A stretch of 64,000 nucleotides of DNA from Aquiflexum lacus (GTDB taxonomy: Bacteria; Bacteroidota; Bacteroidia; Cytophagales; Cyclobacteriaceae), in assembly GCF_015476655.1 (NCBI RefSeq), contig NZ_JABFHF010000006.1, positions 124,001 through 188,000 of the forward strand, in the 5' to 3' direction. Under the pieces are notes generated by a model, which worked only from the letters and a program-made list of their open reading frames with translations, did not search any database and was not told where the DNA came from. A program made the position numbers and the translations under genes. Below are positions 3,407 to 14,797 of the stretch, one piece after another. Within the stretch, counting starts at the first letter, position 1. Each line of letters opens with the position of its first letter.

Positions 3407-5035
3407 ATGCCCATCCAAAAAGAAGAGCCCGCCAACAAAGCGAAAAGAAAAGTAAAAGCAACCAAACAAACCCAAGATAAGCCCATTGAAGTCACCCTAT
3501 GGGATGCTGCCAATAAACTGAGAGGCAGTGTAGAACCTGCCGAATACAAGCACGTGGTGTTGAGTTTGATTTTTTTGAAGTTTGCCAGCGATAAGTTTGA
3601 AGACCACCGCGCCAAACTGATAGCTGAGGGCAAAGAGAAATACTTAGAGATGCCAGATTTCTACAATATGAGCAATGTCTTCTTTTTGGAAGAAAGCAGC
3701 CGCTGGGGTTTTCTGATCAAAAAGTCCAAGCAAAATGACATTGCCCTCCTTATTGATACCGCCCTGCATACCATTGAGAAAAACAACAAAGCACTGAAAG
3801 GTGCCTTACCTGATAATTACTTCTCCCGCTTGGGACTCGATATCACCAAGCTTGCCTCCCTTCTGGATACCATCAATGACATCGATACGCTCAAGGACCC
3901 CAAGCAGGATGTGGTAGGCAAAGTATATGAGTACTTCTTATCCAAATTTGCGCTCGCTGAAGGAAAAGGCAAAGGGGAATTTTATACACCCAAGAGTATT
4001 GTCAACCTGATTGCAGAAATGATAGAACCCTACAAAGGGATTATCTATGACCCTGCTTGCGGTTCGGGCGGTATGTTTGTGCAGAGTATCAAGTTTATCG
4101 AAGCCCATCATGGCAATAAAAAAGAGGTTTCTATCTACGGGCAGGAATATACCAACACCACTTACAAGCTTGCAAAGATGAACCTTGCCATCCGGGGCAT
4201 CAGCGGTAATCTGGGAGAAAAAGCTGCGGATACCTTTGCCGATGACCAACATAAGGACCTGAAGGCAGATTTTATCATGGCCAACCCTCCCTTTAACCAA
4301 AAAGACTGGCGGGCAGAAAATGAACTGAAAGATGATCCAAGATGGAGAGGTTATGATGTGCCGCCGAAGAGCAACGCCAATTATGGCTGGATTTTAAATA
4401 TGGTGTCAAAGCTTTCCGAAAACGGCATTGCAGGATTTATCCTAGCAAACGGTGCACTCAGTGGCGGAGGTGAAGAATACAAAATCCGGAGGAAGTTGGT
4501 TGAAAATAATCTGGTGGAAGCGATTTTGGTATTGCCACAAAACATGTTTTACACTACTAACATCAGCGTTACTTTGTGGATTTTAAATAAAAACAAAAAA
4601 GCCCATACCCGACAAATTGGAGATGAAACCCGAAACTACCGTGACAGGGAAAAAGAAATCTTATTTATGGACTTGCGCCAAATAGGTATTCCATTTGAGA
4701 AAAAATACATTCAATTTTCAAAAGAAGATTTAAGTAAGGTTACTGGCACTTACCACCAGTGGCAAACGGCTGGGTTAAATGAACCTCCAGCTTCATCCTA
4801 TTTAAATATCCCGGAATTCTGTTACTCTGCTTCCATTGAAGAAGTAGTCAAAAAAGATTTTTCCCTTGTCCCAAGCAAATATATAGAATTTGTAAACAGG
4901 GACGAGAATATTGATTTTGATGAAAAGATGAAAATCCTGAAAAGCGAGTTTGCAGACCTGCTAAAAGCCGAAGCCGCCTCCAAAAATGATTTCCTAACCG
5001 TTTTTAAAGAATTGGGTTATGAAATCGAATTATAG
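3407..5035 (+). CDS. hsdM: Type I restriction-modification DNA methyltransferase subunit
   Basis: Adenine-N6 methyltransferase subunit of a type I system, 542 residues. The N-terminal helical HsdM domain begins near residue 25. The SAM-binding motif I is DPACGSGG at residues 215-222 and the catalytic motif IV is NPPF at 293-296, both intact. It works with HsdS to methylate the host target and with HsdR to restrict DNA lacking the mark. Its 3' end overlaps hsdS by 17 bases, implying translational coupling. GC content is clearly higher than in the cargo genes at 6300-9018. No clear promoter was found in the 271-base gap upstream, apart from a weak TAAATTAG at 3365. Confidence 0.96.
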   Translation: MPIQKEEPANKAKRKVKATKQTQDKPIEVTLWDAANKLRGSVEPAEYKHVVLSLIFLKFASDKFEDHRAKLIAEGKEKYLEMPDFYNMSNVFFLEESSRWGFLIKKSKQNDIALLIDTALHTIEKNNKALKGALPDNYFSRLGLDITKLASLLDTINDIDTLKDPKQDVVGKVYEYFLSKFALAEGKGKGEFYTPKSIVNLIAEMIEPYKGIIYDPACGSGGMFVQSIKFIEAHHGNKKEVSIYGQEYTNTTYKLAKMNLAIRGISGNLGEKAADTFADDQHKDLKADFIMANPPFNQKDWRAENELKDDPRWRGYDVPPKSNANYGWILNMVSKLSENGIAGFILANGALSGGGEEYKIRRKLVENNLVEAILVLPQNMFYTTNISVTLWILNKNKKAHTRQIGDETRNYRDREKEILFMDLRQIGIPFEKKYIQFSKEDLSKVTGTYHQWQTAGLNEPPASSYLNIPEFCYSASIEEVVKKDFSLVPSKYIEFVNRDENIDFDEKMKILKSEFADLLKAEAASKNDFLTVFKELGYEIEL

Positions 5036-6251
5036 ACGGATTGGTGACCATATCCGGCAAGTGGATGAACGAAACAAAGGACTGAAGGTAAAAAATCTTT
5101 TGGGTTTGAGTATTTCTAAGCAGTTTATCCCTTCTGTTGCCAATATTATTGGAACAGATATGGAGAATTATAAGATAATTCGAAAGAACCAATTTGCTTG
5201 TAGTACCATGCAGGTAAGGCGTGATAAGAAAATGCCTGTGGCGCTTTTAAAGGAGGTAGATGAAGCCATTATTTCACAGGCTTATCCGATTTTTGAAGTA
5301 AAGGACAGTGAAGAACTTTTGCCAGAATATTTAATGATGTGGTTTACCCGGTCAGAGTTTGACCGAGAGGCTTGTTTCCATGCAGTTGGTGGGGTAAGAG
5401 GAAGTTTAGAATGGGAAGATTTTGAAAACATGGGTTTACCCATTCCCCCCATCACCAAACAAAGAGAAATCGTCAAGGAATACAATGTCATCCAAAACCG
5501 GATTGCCCTCAACCAACAACTGATCCAAAAACTCGAAGAAACCGCACAGGCGATATATAGGGAGTGGTTTGTGGATTTTGAGTTTCCTGATGCAAATGGC
5601 AAACCATATAAAAGCAATGGTGGGGAAATGGTTTGGAATGAGGAGATGGGGAAGGAGATTCCGAAGGGATGGGAAGTTGGAAAGCTTGGTGATGTATTAG
5701 AGTGCAATCCTGAAACTTTATCGAGCAATGATAATTTTAAATCCATCCTCTATCTGGACACCAGCAATATCACAAAAAATAGAATTAATGAATTACACGA
5801 ATTGGATTTAGAATACGATGAAATCCCAAGTCGAGCACGAAGAAAAGTAAAGAACAACGATATTATTTTTTCAACAGTTAGACCAATGTTAAAGCATTAT
5901 GGAATAATTAAAAATCTGCCAGATAATCTTATAGTTTCAACTGGATTTGCAGTTTTTAGAGTAAAAGAATTAAATCTTTTTCCTGAATTAGTTTATTCAT
6001 TTTTGACTGATGAGAAAACGGTAAATTTTCTCCAAGCTAAGGCTGAAATGAGTGTTTCAACATACCCTTCGGTAACTTCAGATGATATAATGAATCTTGA
6101 TTTTGCTAAACCAAATGATAAAGTTCTGGATATTGCAAGGGAAATTTTTAAAAGTAAAGATGATTTCATCAATCTGAAAAACAAAGAAAACCAAAAGCTA
6201 TCGCAACTGAAAGAATTGTTGCTTTCGAGGTTGGCGAAATTGAAAAATTAA
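5019..6251 (+). CDS. hsdS: Type I restriction-modification specificity subunit
   Basis: DNA target recognition subunit of 410 residues, normal for the family. It has the usual two target-recognition domains, each followed by a helical spacer. The first ends in PITKQREIVKEYN followed by a long helix reaching AIYREWFVDFEF around residue 190. The second begins after the IPKGWEVGKLGDV segment and ends in a helix ending KELLLSRLAKLKN. The ATG at 5019 lies inside the end of hsdM. Base composition falls sharply in the second half, towards the AT-rich cargo that follows, which fits domain exchange, a known way of changing HsdS specificity. Confidence 0.95.
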   Translation: MKSNYRRIGDHIRQVDERNKGLKVKNLLGLSISKQFIPSVANIIGTDMENYKIIRKNQFACSTMQVRRDKKMPVALLKEVDEAIISQAYPIFEVKDSEELLPEYLMMWFTRSEFDREACFHAVGGVRGSLEWEDFENMGLPIPPITKQREIVKEYNVIQNRIALNQQLIQKLEETAQAIYREWFVDFEFPDANGKPYKSNGGEMVWNEEMGKEIPKGWEVGKLGDVLECNPETLSSNDNFKSILYLDTSNITKNRINELHELDLEYDEIPSRARRKVKNNDIIFSTVRPMLKHYGIIKNLPDNLIVSTGFAVFRVKELNLFPELVYSFLTDEKTVNFLQAKAEMSVSTYPSVTSDDIMNLDFAKPNDKVLDIAREIFKSKDDFINLKNKENQKLSQLKELLLSRLAKLKN

Positions 6252-9560: not shown

Positions 9561-10955
9561 ATGAGCGAACGCCAAAACATAGAATGGAAACAAAGTTGGC
9601 ACGATGACTACCTAAAATGGGTATGTGGTTTTGCCAATGCCATTGGCGGCACTATTTATATTGGCAAAGATGATAAGGGCAATGTGGTTGATCTGCCGGA
9701 TCATCAAAAGTTATTGGAAGATATCCCCAATAAAATCCGCAATACGATGGGCATTATCTGTGACATCAATTTGCAGGAAGAAGCCGGAAAGAAATTCATT
9801 GAAATAAAGGTAAACCCCTATTCGGTGCCCGTTTCGCTTCGGGGCAGATACTATTATCGCACTGGTAGTACCAAAATGGAATTGACAGGTGTGGAGCTCA
9901 ATGAATTTTTGCTCAAAAAAGCAGGTAAAACCTGGGATGATGTTGTGGAGGAAGGAGCCTCAATAAAAGACATTGATGAAGCAAGTATCGCTAAATTTAT
10001 ATCTGATAGTCAAGAAAAGAGCAGAATACCAATCACAAAGGGGCTTTCGGTGCTTCAAATCTTGGAGAAGCTTCAACTTACCGAAGGGAAAAAATTGAAA
10101 AGGGCTGCTATTTTACTGTTTGGGAAGCATCCGGGAAAGTTTTATCCCAATGTAGAAGTAAGAATTGGACGTTTTGGCGAAGACGCTACAGATTTGCGGT
10201 TTCAAGAAGTAATAGAAGGCAATCTGATTCAGATGTTGGATGAGGTTCAAACACAGCTTCATCATAAATTTTTAATCCGCCCGGTAGACTTTGTTGGGAT
10301 GCAGCGGGTAGAAAAAGACGCATACCCCTTGGCCGCACTGCGGGAAATGCTGCTCAATGCCCTAGTGCACAGAACCTATATGGGTGCTCATATTCAATTG
10401 CGGGTATTTGACGATAGGCTGTCTATTTGGAATGAAGGGTTGCTTCCTCATGGCTTAAGTCTGGATGATTTAAAAAAAGAACACAACTCCCGTCCACGTA
10501 ATCCAAAAATAGCCAAAGCTTGTTTTATGGCCGGTTATATCGAAACTTGGGGTCGAGGTACATTGAAAATTATAAATGCTTGTAAAGAAGCAGGTTTGCC
10601 TGAGCCTGAGATCAGGGAGATGAATGGCGGTATTGAAATCACACTGTTCAGTCGTTTGGTAGAAGAAGCTCAAAAGGGAACCCAAAGGGATGTTTCTACC
10701 ACGCAAGTCACCACGCAAGTCACCATGCAAGTCACCACGCAAGTCAGAAATTTGCTTGAGGTGTTTGAAGGTACACATAACCGTCAGGAACTGCAGGAGA
10801 AACTTGGTTTGGCTAACAGAGAGCATTTCCGAAAAGCTTATTTACAACCTGCCATTGACCTGGAATTTGTTGCATTAACCGTACCCGAAAAGCCCAAAAG
10901 CAGCAAACAGCGATACACATTAACAGAAAGAGGGAAAAACGTTTTGAGCCAATGA
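9561..10955 (+). CDS. AlbA_2 / HATPase_c_4 protein with C-terminal winged helix (COG2865-like)
   Basis: Protein of 464 residues with three parts. An N-terminal AlbA_2 (Schlafen-like) DNA-binding domain starts IEWKQSWHDDYLKWVCGFAN and includes GGTIYIGKDD and YYRTGSTKMEL. A GHKL-type ATPase-like domain has LREMLLNALVHR (about 260-272) and ETWGRGTLKI (about 331-340). After a four-fold TTQV repeat comes a winged-helix domain, NRQELQEKLGL. Such proteins are usually annotated as putative transcriptional regulators or helicases. The last four bases overlap the hsdR start (ATGA), so the two are translationally coupled, which suggests control of or cooperation with the restriction subunit. That role is inference. 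Confidence 0.85.
   Translation: MSERQNIEWKQSWHDDYLKWVCGFANAIGGTIYIGKDDKGNVVDLPDHQKLLEDIPNKIRNTMGIICDINLQEEAGKKFIEIKVNPYSVPVSLRGRYYYRTGSTKMELTGVELNEFLLKKAGKTWDDVVEEGASIKDIDEASIAKFISDSQEKSRIPITKGLSVLQILEKLQLTEGKKLKRAAILLFGKHPGKFYPNVEVRIGRFGEDATDLRFQEVIEGNLIQMLDEVQTQLHHKFLIRPVDFVGMQRVEKDAYPLAALREMLLNALVHRTYMGAHIQLRVFDDRLSIWNEGLLPHGLSLDDLKKEHNSRPRNPKIAKACFMAGYIETWGRGTLKIINACKEAGLPEPEIREMNGGIEITLFSRLVEEAQKGTQRDVSTTQVTTQVTMQVTTQVRNLLEVFEGTHNRQELQEKLGLANREHFRKAYLQPAIDLEFVALTVPEKPKSSKQRYTLTERGKNVLSQ
10698..10745 (+). repeat. Four 12-bp tandem repeats encoding TTQV
   Basis: The unit ACCACGCAAGTC occurs four times without gaps, the third copy having ATG for ACG. It encodes the linker TTQVTTQVTMQVTTQV between the ATPase and winged-helix domains. 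The unit is a multiple of three, so slippage would change linker length without breaking the frame. Confidence 0.9.
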
Positions 10956-13900
10956 AATTTACTGAAGGAAAATTGGAAAGTGCTTTTACCGAATTGTTGG
11001 GGATGGAAGGATATTCCCACCATTTGGGTTTTACCCTTATCCGTCAGCCAGACGAAGTATTGATAGAAGAAGATTTGATATGCTTTCTTTTGGAACAATA
11101 CAGTAGTTATGGCATCACGGTAAACGAAACCAAATCCATTGTTCTGCAACTCAAATCCCTTTCCGCTTCTGACCTCTATGAAAGCAATAAAACTTTTTTA
11201 AGGATGCTTTCAGATGGTTTTATTCTCAAAAGAGAAGATCGCAGCCAAAAGGACATTTATATTCAACTGATTGATTACAGCGGCTTGGACAATCAGCGCC
11301 AACCTGAGGCAATTGAATTGATATCCATAGCCGGTGAGGATGAAGAAAGGAACTTTACCTATGATGATAAAGCACCTTATCATAAGGACAACAATATTTA
11401 CAAGTTTGTCACCCAATGTGAAATCATCGGGACAGAAAAACGCATACCGGATGGTATTGTCTATGTCAATGGCTTGCCACTTGTGGTTATCGAATTTAAA
11501 AGTGCCATCAGAGAAGAAACCACCATCTATGATGCTTTCAAACAATTGACGGTTCGTTACCGAAGAGATATTCCTGAGCTTTTTAAATACAATGCCTTTT
11601 GTGTCATCAGTGACGGGGTAAACAACAAGGCCGGTTCGTTCTTTGCCCCGTATGAGTTTTTCTATGCGTGGCGTAGGATTGCCGGATTGGCCAAGGAGGT
11701 TGATGGGATTAACAGTATGTACACACTTATTCAGGGAATGTTTGATAAAGTCCGTTTCCGGGATATCCTCCGCAACTTTATTTACATTCCTGACAGCTCC
11801 AAAAAAAACGAGAAGATTGTCTGCCGCTACCCGCAGTATTATGCTGCAAGGGCATTGTATGACCATATAAAATTGGCACAAAAGCCCAATGGGAACGGAA
11901 AGGGCGGGACCTATTTTGGAGCAACAGGCTGCGGTAAGAGTTTTACCATGCTCTACCTTACGAGGTTGTTGATGAAGAGTGAATACTTCGAAAGTCCTAC
12001 CATCGTATTGATTACCGACCGCACCGACTTGGACGACCAACTTTCCGGGCAGTTTACCAATGCCAAAAAGTTCGTAGGGGATAATACCATTATTAGTGTG
12101 GAAAGCCGGGCCAATCTCCGGGAATTATTGGAGGGCAGACAAAGTGGAGGCGTTTTTTTAACTACCATCCACAAGTTTACTGAAGATACCGAATTGCTGA
12201 CTGACCGAACAAACGTGATCTGCATATCGGACGAGGCACACCGCAGTCAGGTCAATCTGGACCAAAAAGTTAAAGTAACAGACAAAGGCGTAACCAAGAC
12301 TTTTGGCTTTGCCAAGTATTTACATGATTCATTGCCCAATGCCACCTTTGTAGGTTTTACTGGAACTCCTATAGATGCCACGCTTGATGTGTTTGGAAAG
12401 GTGGTGGATGCTTATACCATGACCGAATCGGTGAAGGATGAAATCACCGTTAGGATCGTCTACGAAGGAAGGGCGGCCAAGGTATTGTTGAATAACACCA
12501 AACTGAAAGAGATTGAGGACTATTATGTCAAATGTGCGGAAATTGGGAGCAATGAAAATCAGATTGAACAAAGCAAAAAAGAAATGGCACAGATGTATGC
12601 CATTATCGGTGACCCTGACCGGTTGAAAGCAGTTGCCGAAGATTTTGTAACCCACTATGAAAACAGGGTTTCAGAGGGTTCGACTGTCAAAGGTAAGGCG
12701 ATGTTTGTATGCAGCACCCGTGAAATCGCCTATGAGTTATATAAAAATATCATTGCCCACCTGGGCTCTCGAAGCTCCAGCTTCGAGCACATTGAAAGCA
12801 CAAATTACGCTCAATATTTTACCAAAAACTTTGGATACCCGGAAGAGTGGCATTATGGAAATCTACCGCACCGAAATAAAGATGGTTTAATTCAATTTAT
12901 CACATTCAGATTAGCCGATAGCCTTCCACAGGAAGTATTAAAAGAAATCGAAGCTGAAATTAAAAATCTTTCTGATGATATAAGAGACGTAGAAAAGCGA
13001 AAAAAATATCAATATTGGCTTGACAAAGGATTAGGAAGTTGCGCTTTGGCAAATAGAGAAATGGCTCAAGTGGTGCAGGAAGCCTTATTGCACCACGACG
13101 GCGATAAATATAATTTATTGGCTTGGTCAATTATGCCAAATCATGTTCATGTTTTGATTAGGACAAGCGGTGATTTGGTCAGGATAATACAGTCTTGGAA
13201 ATCATTCACTGGGAAATGGGCCTTACAAAACAACAAAAGGTTTAATCTCGGAATTGACAAAGAGGCAGCACAGTTTTGGATGCCCGAATATTGGGATAGA
13301 TTTATCAGGGATGATGAACATTTTAACAATACTGTTAGGTATATTCTGAATAATCCTGTGAAGGCAAATTTGCCTGAAAATCATATCGCTTATTTGTTTA
13401 GGGGAGTGCAGCTGGATAAAGGGGCGAAGCAGGAGCTTCACCCCACCCAGATAAAACTCATCGCTACCAGAGGACAGGACGACCCGAAGGAACTTTACGA
13501 CTTATTGGGTACTAAAGAATACCGCAAGGAATTAGACAGGCAATTCAAAAATGAAAAGTCCAATTTCAAAATTGCCATCGTGGTGGATATGTGGCTGACG
13601 GGCTTTGATGTGCCGTTTTTGGATAGCATCTATATTGATAAACCAATACAGCGACATAATTTGATTCAGACCATATCAAGGGTAAACCGCAAATTTGAAG
13701 GAAAGATTAAGGGCTTGGTGGTGGATTATATTGGCATCAAAAAGCAAATGAATCTGGCGTTGAAGCAATACAGTGAAGGTGATAAGGACAACTTCGAAGA
13801 CATTAATGAATCGATCATCATTGTTAGGAACCACTTAGACCTCTTGGCCAAAATTTTCCACACCTTCGACAACTCCAAATATTTCCATGGAACGACCATT

Positions 13901-14797
13901 CAGCAACTGAATACTTTGAATATGGCGGCGGAGTATGTGCAAAAGACCAAAGAATTTGAAACCCGGTTTATGGGCTTGGTGAAGCGGTTGAAAGCTGCTT
14001 ATGATATCTGTGCAGGTAGTGAACAGTTGACGCAGGTAGAAAGAGATTATACCCATTTCTATTTGGCTGTGAGGTCCATAGTTTTCAAGCTTACCAAAGG
14101 TAATGCGCCTGATTCTTCCCAAATGAATGCAAAGGTCCGGGAAATGATCAAAGACGCGCTGCAAAGTGATGGTGTTGAGGAAATATTTAAACTTGGTAAT
14201 GAGGATGAAACCGAGCAGGACATTTTTGATGAAGATTATTTGGCGAAGATTGATAAAATCAAATTGCCGAATACGAAAATCAAATTGCTTCAACAGTTAT
14301 TGGCCAAAGTTATTGCAGAAATCAAAAAAGTAAACCGGGTCAAAGGGATTGACTTCAGCAAAAAAATGCAGGATTTGGTAGAACGCTATAACCAACGTGA
14401 CGAGAGTGATATTTTGAGAAGTGAAGTCTATGAGGAAATGGCCGAGGCACTTACCAATATGATTTGGGAAGTTCACAAGGAGTTTTCGGCTGGCGATATT
14501 TTGGGAATTGACTTTGAAGAAAAGGCGTTTTATGATATCCTGAAAGAATTGTGTATAAAATATGACTTCAAATACCCTGAAGAAAAACTGATTGAATTGG
14601 CAAAAGCTGTAAAAGAGTTAGTGGATGGCCAAGCCAAGTTCCCGGACTGGAATAAACGGGACGATATTAAATCTGCTTTGAAGGTAGGCCTGATTTTATT
14701 ACTCGATGAATTTGGATATCCTCCTGTTGAGAGGGATGAAGTTTATGTGGAGATTTTTGAGCAGGCGGAGAATTTTAAAAAGAATCAGGGGAGGTGA
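10952..14797 (+). CDS. hsdR: Type I restriction endonuclease subunit with an in-frame RAYT transposase insertion
   Basis: ATP-dependent translocase and nuclease of the type I complex. The nuclease region has RIPDGIVYVNG followed by VVIEFKSA (D..ExK, about residues 165-185). Walker A is GATGCGKS (about 323-330), motif II DEAH near 426 and motif III GFTGTPID near 470. Motif IV, MFVCSTREIAYELYKNI, ends near 602. Residues about 603-833 are foreign: a RAYT/TnpA_REP domain with NHVHVL (H731, H733) and Y797. HsdR then resumes with KLIATRGQDDPKELYDLLG, motif V (about 877), motif VI QTISRVNR (about 905) and a C-terminal DUF3387-like region. Without the insert the protein is about 1,050 residues, normal for the family. 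The frame stays open throughout, so an active enzyme with an extra domain is possible. Confidence 0.95.
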   Translation: MKFTEGKLESAFTELLGMEGYSHHLGFTLIRQPDEVLIEEDLICFLLEQYSSYGITVNETKSIVLQLKSLSASDLYESNKTFLRMLSDGFILKREDRSQKDIYIQLIDYSGLDNQRQPEAIELISIAGEDEERNFTYDDKAPYHKDNNIYKFVTQCEIIGTEKRIPDGIVYVNGLPLVVIEFKSAIREETTIYDAFKQLTVRYRRDIPELFKYNAFCVISDGVNNKAGSFFAPYEFFYAWRRIAGLAKEVDGINSMYTLIQGMFDKVRFRDILRNFIYIPDSSKKNEKIVCRYPQYYAARALYDHIKLAQKPNGNGKGGTYFGATGCGKSFTMLYLTRLLMKSEYFESPTIVLITDRTDLDDQLSGQFTNAKKFVGDNTIISVESRANLRELLEGRQSGGVFLTTIHKFTEDTELLTDRTNVICISDEAHRSQVNLDQKVKVTDKGVTKTFGFAKYLHDSLPNATFVGFTGTPIDATLDVFGKVVDAYTMTESVKDEITVRIVYEGRAAKVLLNNTKLKEIEDYYVKCAEIGSNENQIEQSKKEMAQMYAIIGDPDRLKAVAEDFVTHYENRVSEGSTVKGKAMFVCSTREIAYELYKNIIAHLGSRSSSFEHIESTNYAQYFTKNFGYPEEWHYGNLPHRNKDGLIQFITFRLADSLPQEVLKEIEAEIKNLSDDIRDVEKRKKYQYWLDKGLGSCALANREMAQVVQEALLHHDGDKYNLLAWSIMPNHVHVLIRTSGDLVRIIQSWKSFTGKWALQNNKRFNLGIDKEAAQFWMPEYWDRFIRDDEHFNNTVRYILNNPVKANLPENHIAYLFRGVQLDKGAKQELHPTQIKLIATRGQDDPKELYDLLGTKEYRKELDRQFKNEKSNFKIAIVVDMWLTGFDVPFLDSIYIDKPIQRHNLIQTISRVNRKFEGKIKGLVVDYIGIKKQMNLALKQYSEGDKDNFEDINESIIIVRNHLDLLAKIFHTFDNSKYFHGTTIQQLNTLNMAAEYVQKTKEFETRFMGLVKRLKAAYDICAGSEQLTQVERDYTHFYLAVRSIVFKLTKGNAPDSSQMNAKVREMIKDALQSDGVEEIFKLGNEDETEQDIFDEDYLAKIDKIKLPNTKIKLLQQLLAKVIAEIKKVNRVKGIDFSKKMQDLVERYNQRDESDILRSEVYEEMAEALTNMIWEVHKEFSAGDILGIDFEEKAFYDILKELCIKYDFKYPEEKLIELAKAVKELVDGQAKFPDWNKRDDIKSALKVGLILLLDEFGYPPVERDEVYVEIFEQAENFKKNQGR
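12768..12787 (+). repeat. REP-like hairpin, left side of the RAYT
   Basis: Perfect inverted repeat with 9-base arms CTCGAAGCT and AGCTTCGAG around a CC loop, translated in frame as part of HsdR. Its core GAAGCTCCAGCTTC returns, reverse-complemented with one change, on the other side of the RAYT. Confidence 0.85.
13421..13444 (-). repeat. REP-like hairpin, right side of the RAYT (inverted orientation)
   Basis: Arms GGGGCGAAGC and GCTTCACCCC pair with one mismatch around an AGGA loop. On the minus strand the core reads GAAGCTCCTGCTTC, 13 of 14 bases identical to the left hairpin core. The two therefore form an inverted pair, as in bacterial interspersed mosaic elements. Confidence 0.85.

Follow-up and report, generated by a model that had tools for sequence, protein, structure and literature searches.

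The hsd locus and its embedded domain

The 64,000-nucleotide stretch of Aquiflexum lacus DNA analyzed here (hereafter, the window) carries a type I restriction locus on its forward strand. The genes hsdM (3407-5035; PADLOC MTase_I, 9.7e-143) and hsdS (5019-6251; PADLOC Specificity_I, 4.6e-56) lie upstream of hsdR (10952-14797), an open frame whose 1281-residue product matches HsdR families on both sides of an embedded RAYT domain. The HsdR protein was retrieved by the NCBIfam hsdR model (TIGR00348, 3e-125) and by PADLOC REase_I, and its Pfam matches to HSDR_N, SWI2_SNF2, T1R_D3-like, and T1RH-like_C surround a match to Y1_Tnp. With nuclease, motor, and C-terminal domains and with hsdM and hsdS nearby, the protein is a type I HsdR. 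EcoR124I HsdR (PDB 2w00) has the same plan, a nuclease joined to an SNF2-type motor and C-terminal domains, in a locus that also contains hsdM and hsdS; the window protein departs from it in that a HUH nuclease domain occupies the position of a loop in the second motor domain. Two other frames were observed within the locus. The gene at 7315-9018 matches the PADLOC HEC-06 / Orf5 models and is a further candidate defense gene, and a 126-residue frame at 9086-9466 matches PADLOC PDC-S05 models that are mostly longer than the frame, giving it the appearance of a truncated gene.

The embedded domain is a RAYT cassette comprising HsdR residues 604-833 (12761-13450, forward strand), delimited by alignment with empty and occupied hsdR alleles and assigned by family and fold matches. 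Residues 604-832 matched Pfam Y1_Tnp with 30.4 bits, above the cut-off of 23, and narrowly missed the NCBIfam REP_Tyr_transpos cut-off of 80 (NF047646; 76.2 bits, 2.4e-21). When the insert was modeled alone (pLDDT 76, pTM 0.74), the top PDB match was 4er8, the E. coli TnpA_REP with a bound REP hairpin (E 1.2e-6), which was also recovered by a sequence search that used no structure. A model of the whole motor with its insert was too weak for interpretation (pLDDT 57), and only the insert-alone model was relied upon. The HUH motif (His-Val-His, codons 731-733, 13142-13150) and the codon of the catalytic tyrosine (Y797, 13340-13342) do not vary among the relatives (17 of 17). The domain thus unites the HUH residues (H731 and H733) and the catalytic tyrosine expected of a RAYT with the Y1 fold represented by 4er8. 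Two free-standing RAYT relatives (L042 and L043), each with its own ATG, are 62-63% identical to the insert.

The RAYT also appears not to be made alone. No in-frame ATG, GTG, or TTG was found ahead of the RAYT core in the window allele or in seven other occupied ones; unless translation begins at a rare start, the complete RAYT is therefore predicted to be made only within HsdR. The predicted fusion protein would have a mass of about 145 kDa.

Borders, replaced loop, and terminal palindromes

Alignment of the occupied alleles with 26 empty HsdRs revealed what the cassette had displaced. Occupied alleles read ...YKNIIA-(H/Y/L)LG.RSS...[RAYT]...K.ELHP(T/S)Q-IK..., and empty alleles read ...YKNIIA-LRPEW...KPIER-IK.... 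Approximately 231 residues in occupied alleles correspond to 30 in empty ones, and the cassette therefore replaces host sequence instead of simply adding to it; the roughly 30 codons of the empty alleles (LRPEW...KPIER) are gone from every occupied allele. The DNA of the cassette begins with CTGGG (12761) and ends with CCCAG (13450).

These results bear on a preliminary description of the locus, made from the window alone, which had proposed that a complete-looking TnpA_REP domain with H731, H733, and Y797 lies in a variable loop of HsdR, in a frame open on both sides and with the flanking HsdR intact. The domain was confirmed at residues ~604-833 by the family models and the 4er8 fold, no stop interrupts the frame between 10952 and 14797, and the flanking domains are matched and conserved. 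Of the checks that the description suggested, fold prediction returned TnpA_REP, and the homologue alignment fixed the borders at about 12761-13450, with at least 15 other genomes carrying the insert at the identical two junctions. The replacement of a host loop of ~30 residues had been missed.

Palindromes are found at both ends of the cassette, as in other RAYT elements. The left-end palindrome (CTCGAAGC-TCCA-GCTTCGAG, 12768-12787, forward strand) lies in a stretch with a DNA fold z of -4.8 and displays compensatory changes, while the right-end palindrome (GGGGCGAAGC-AGGA-GCTTCACCCC, 13421-13444, forward strand) folds weakly as DNA (z -1.9) and takes two alternative forms in other occupied alleles. 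Given that similar hairpins flank the free-standing L042 and L043 outside their gene, we read the palindromes as the ends of the element, which in the window HsdR would be translated. Left-end stems among the occupied alleles are CTCGAAGC/GCTTCGAG, AACGTAGC/GCTGCGTT, AACGCAGC/GCTGCGTT, or CACGGAGC/GCTCCGTG. Across the alignment of this hairpin, 94.3% of cells pair, and changes occur on both sides in 12 cells, against a mean of 4.3 in shuffles. The covariation score of 0.37 (shuffled mean, 0.11; none of 500 shuffles as high; maximum of slid controls, 0.094) derives from a small set, with the L039 and L032 rows omitted, in which kinship can push sequences above shuffles; the distinct compensated forms were therefore given more weight than the count. 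Together, these forms indicate that the left-end DNA hairpin is maintained through compensatory changes. The right-end hairpin is less conserved and less secure. Reading by eye for the GT[AG]G foot, we located a GTGG adjoining the right hairpin on the minus strand and none at the left end. Dispersed cognate REPs were sought with the pattern GAAGCTNNAGCTTC, which occurs nowhere in the window's genome except in this element. Cognate REPs are absent for some RAYTs.

Distribution and exchange between hsdR alleles

The same insert was observed at the same site in at least 16 HsdRs, including that of the window, from two phyla. Bacteroidota examples come from Cyclobacteriaceae, Prolixibacteraceae, Marinilabiliaceae, a Chitinophagales MAG, and several other members; those of Verrucomicrobiota come from Akkermansiaceae, Rubritaleaceae, and another Verrucomicrobiales MAG. 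A distribution of this breadth rules out an assembly artefact or a singleton. The insert is nonetheless rare: apart from the window's genome, 3 of 296 genomes in the family and 1 of 395 in the class carry it. Among occupied HsdRs, insert identities fall to ~53%. By a simple counting method, under which many pairs were saturated, dN/dS in the measurable pairs was mostly 0.04-0.15 for the insert and ~0.02-0.1 for the flanks, values indicating that both are under strong purifying selection. Insert and host gene differ in third-position GC, with the clearest gap in Verrucomicrobiota (0.46-0.65 for the insert, 0.75-0.83 for the gene).

The window's genome has a single copy of the cassette, as does every other occupied Bacteroidota genome tested, which rules out a multi-copy insertion sequence. 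Plasmids, phages, and viral contigs yielded no match to the cassette, in collections that may under-sample such hosts. Elsewhere in the window's genome, outside the window, a second member of the RAYT family (G000:C40:28341-28808) contains an internal TAA. In the occupied hsdR of L032 (Cognataquiflexum nitidum LQ15W), a TAA falls within the insert, and the gene is either broken there or misread.

Analysis of the HsdR flanks with the insert removed (16 occupied and 26 empty alleles) revealed interleaved states, with 9 changes across the tree, at least 8 of which are forced by well-supported branches. The closest row to the window is an empty allele from the same genus that is 96% identical. The flank and insert trees were quick and the groups tested were chosen after the trees had been seen; with that understood, a single clade of all occupied alleles is rejected on the flank tree (AU test, p 8e-10), and the grouping of L038, L039, and L041, which the insert tree unites (support 87), is rejected by the flanks (p 1e-53). 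Simple vertical inheritance from one insertion is ruled out by these AU tests. Synonymous divergence varies with distance, the insert being younger than its flanks in close pairs and not in more distant ones. Between L031 and L032, insert dS is 0.02 versus 0.45 and 0.29 for the two flanks; between the window and L031, it is 0.45 versus 0.90 and 1.33.

Allele-specific sites in the window gene mostly resemble those of L057, an empty allele, up to residue 601, are occupied-like to about residue 857, and then mostly resemble L057 again. A tract of ~25 codons linked to the occupied state (13451-13525, forward strand) thus adjoins the cassette on its right, with sites reverting to the empty neighbor after about residue 858. 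The sites around the window insert, with their sharp boundary, show exchange between alleles, which may have run in either direction. Because the alternative stretch is common to L057 and L060, both directions fit, and near the window the empty neighbors rather than the occupied allele could be the recombinants. Given that the replaced loop is absent from every occupied allele, we infer that the insert spread when alleles recombined with others already carrying it, rather than through a new transposition in each case. The preliminary description had offered two alternatives, a very recent landing or an extra domain of HsdR. The former is contradicted by the shared junctions in Bacteroidota and Verrucomicrobiota and by the depth of insert divergence; the latter came closer but was incomplete, as it took in neither the retained left hairpin nor the repeated passage between hsdR alleles, features that still give the element the look of a cassette and not of a domesticated domain alone.

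Persistence of the cassette and related RAYTs in other genes

No earlier description of a RAYT inside HsdR, or inside any other restriction protein, was found in the open-access literature. The nearest relatives are the TnpA_REP REPtrons of the TnpA_Y1 family, which have the same HUH motif with a single tyrosine, the 4er8 fold, and hairpins at both ends, and which are usually present in one copy per genome (Quentin et al. 2018, PMC6006769). Unlike REPtrons, the HsdR RAYT lacks an ordinary start codon, is predicted to be translated as a domain of HsdR, and has its hairpins embedded in the coding sequence of its host, with no copies of them dispersed through the genome. The same study set aside a few TnpA_Y1 proteins that were longer than expected, treating them as fusions or annotation errors, and REPs within tnpA_REP genes that leave the frame unbroken were already known (Quentin et al. 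2018, PMC6006769). REP and RPE palindromes are also translated in frame inside working genes, many of them for DNA repair or replication (PMC3733652); those are short, geneless repeats, whereas in HsdR a whole transposase gene would be translated together with its ends. IS200/IS605 elements (IS608, ISDra2) have the Y1 HUH transposase fold and end hairpins in common with the cassette. Unlike them, the HsdR RAYT is single-copy, matches the IS200 family model weakly, and probably spreads by allelic recombination.

We consider it probable, if by no wide measure, that the HsdR-embedded RAYT is a translated-through cassette that persists by leaving HsdR functional and is passed between alleles. A complete RAYT element, consisting of terminal hairpins and a HUH/Y1 nuclease gene, would have become fixed long ago in a loop of type I HsdR, landing in frame in the second RecA-like part with the loss of 30 residues. 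The RAYT would since have been translated straight through, existing in complete form only as a fusion domain of an HsdR that still works. With the host gene unharmed and the restriction locus much exchanged, the cassette would ride along and be handed as a unit between divergent hsdR alleles through recombination at one site. The in-frame fusion, the conserved borders and catalytic residues, the purifying selection, the left hairpin, and the allele exchange find direct support in the sequences compared here; the activity of HsdR and of the HUH nuclease, and the view that the element mainly benefits itself by persisting, are our inferences. A function useful to the host might explain equally well why a long-lived copy is under purifying selection and keeps its catalytic residues invariant. 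RAYTs have long been seen as puzzling single-copy transposases, and the HsdR case bears directly on how they persist: a bacterial transposase element, ends included, would here be a long-standing translated domain of a conserved enzyme that is still moving between alleles.

Inteins and WHO/HO elements are likewise gene-embedded cassettes that are patchy at one site and accompanied by exchange of flanking sequence, and WHO elements, which do not splice, take the place of a part of their host gene, inviting a homing analogy (PMC7282813). The HsdR cassette displays these traits, being patchy at a single site with neighboring sequence exchanged over ~25 codons on the right. An intein proper is ruled out, as no Hint splicing domain was found in the Pfam scan. 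Homing would require the HUH nuclease, either HsdR-borne or alone, to cut the empty hsdR loop, with repair copying the cassette and neighboring sequence; such an entity would amount to an intein-like element without splicing. Recurrent gain or loss at one site, a loop replaced every time as in gene conversion, a left boundary adjoining the element with exchange on the right, and invariant nuclease residues are all consistent with this process, which we nevertheless regard as unlikely. The same pattern is expected from ordinary homologous recombination between exchanged restriction loci, the empty loop has no known cleavage site, and exchange could have run in either direction. In addition, where inteins and WHO/HO elements use LAGLIDADG-type enzymes, the HsdR cassette encodes a single-strand nuclease, an unobvious homing enzyme whose cutting of empty alleles is putative. 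We attach similarly low probability to a wider class of splicing-free homing cassettes, in which a HUH nuclease would reach and convert empty alleles as a domain of the translocase and related RAYTs would do likewise in several other restriction and DNA-processing genes.

A role for the HUH nuclease in restriction itself, such as nicking or capturing the single strands that the HsdR motor exposes on phage DNA, is also doubtful. Such domestication would fit the long retention of a domain whose catalytic residues are invariant and whose dN/dS is low, the half of occupied alleles that lack an independent start, and the related RAYTs in several restriction or defense proteins. Empty alleles, however, are common, 90-94% identical in the C-terminal part, and evidently sufficient, and the insert is rare. 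A purely protein role would not need a compensated DNA hairpin, and valyl-tRNA synthetase and RecG host RAYTs as well. It is highly improbable that the insert arrived recently and is neutral, or that it is a pseudogene left open by chance: a stop does occur in the insert of one relative, but the window copy, for which the preliminary description had named a stop as contrary evidence, has none, and there are 15 other occupied alleles in two phyla with insert and flanks under strong purifying selection. That the region is an ordinary HsdR domain, which the same description had listed as grounds for abandoning its claim, is ruled out to near certainty by the empty alleles with their 30-residue loop, with family models and fold pointing to a RAYT and free-standing RAYTs ~62% identical.

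Beyond this insertion site, we observed RAYTs in frame in other genes. A second HsdR family carries one between HSDR_N and the ATPase (L103, L104, L111, and, from Verrucomicrobiota, L117). Comparison of occupied L111:1863-5858 with the empty L119 revealed flanks of 96.5% and 98.5% DNA identity and a net difference of 963 bp (321 codons) in the linker, direct sequence evidence that an hsdR can gain or lose a stretch bearing a RAYT cleanly and in frame. In-frame RAYTs also occur in HmaB/DUF1156 methyltransferases at two sites (L100; L101 and L102), in a type IIG restriction enzyme (L105), and in PglX (L112). Restriction and defense genes account for 6 of the 8 host-site combinations, in a small sample that was not drawn as a test of enrichment. 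The frames of most RAYTs listed in a 296-genome survey are ~130-280 residues long, so embedding is the exception. The presence of in-frame RAYTs in several restriction and defense genes suggests either an unrecognized route of spread or an unrecognized nuclease activity in phage defense.

Several further examples were noted. RecG (L109:3-1556, at a contig end) contains an in-frame RAYT with REP-like peptides, and in a planctomycete MAG the essential valyl-tRNA synthetase gene (L051:2263-6018) contains one between REP-derived peptides. L111 and L119 also differ in a short REP-like stretch farther along. Lastly, one Akkermansiaceae genome (UBA1315) encodes members of both HsdR families (L045 and L117), and in each a separate RAYT lies in frame at the site where that family usually carries one.
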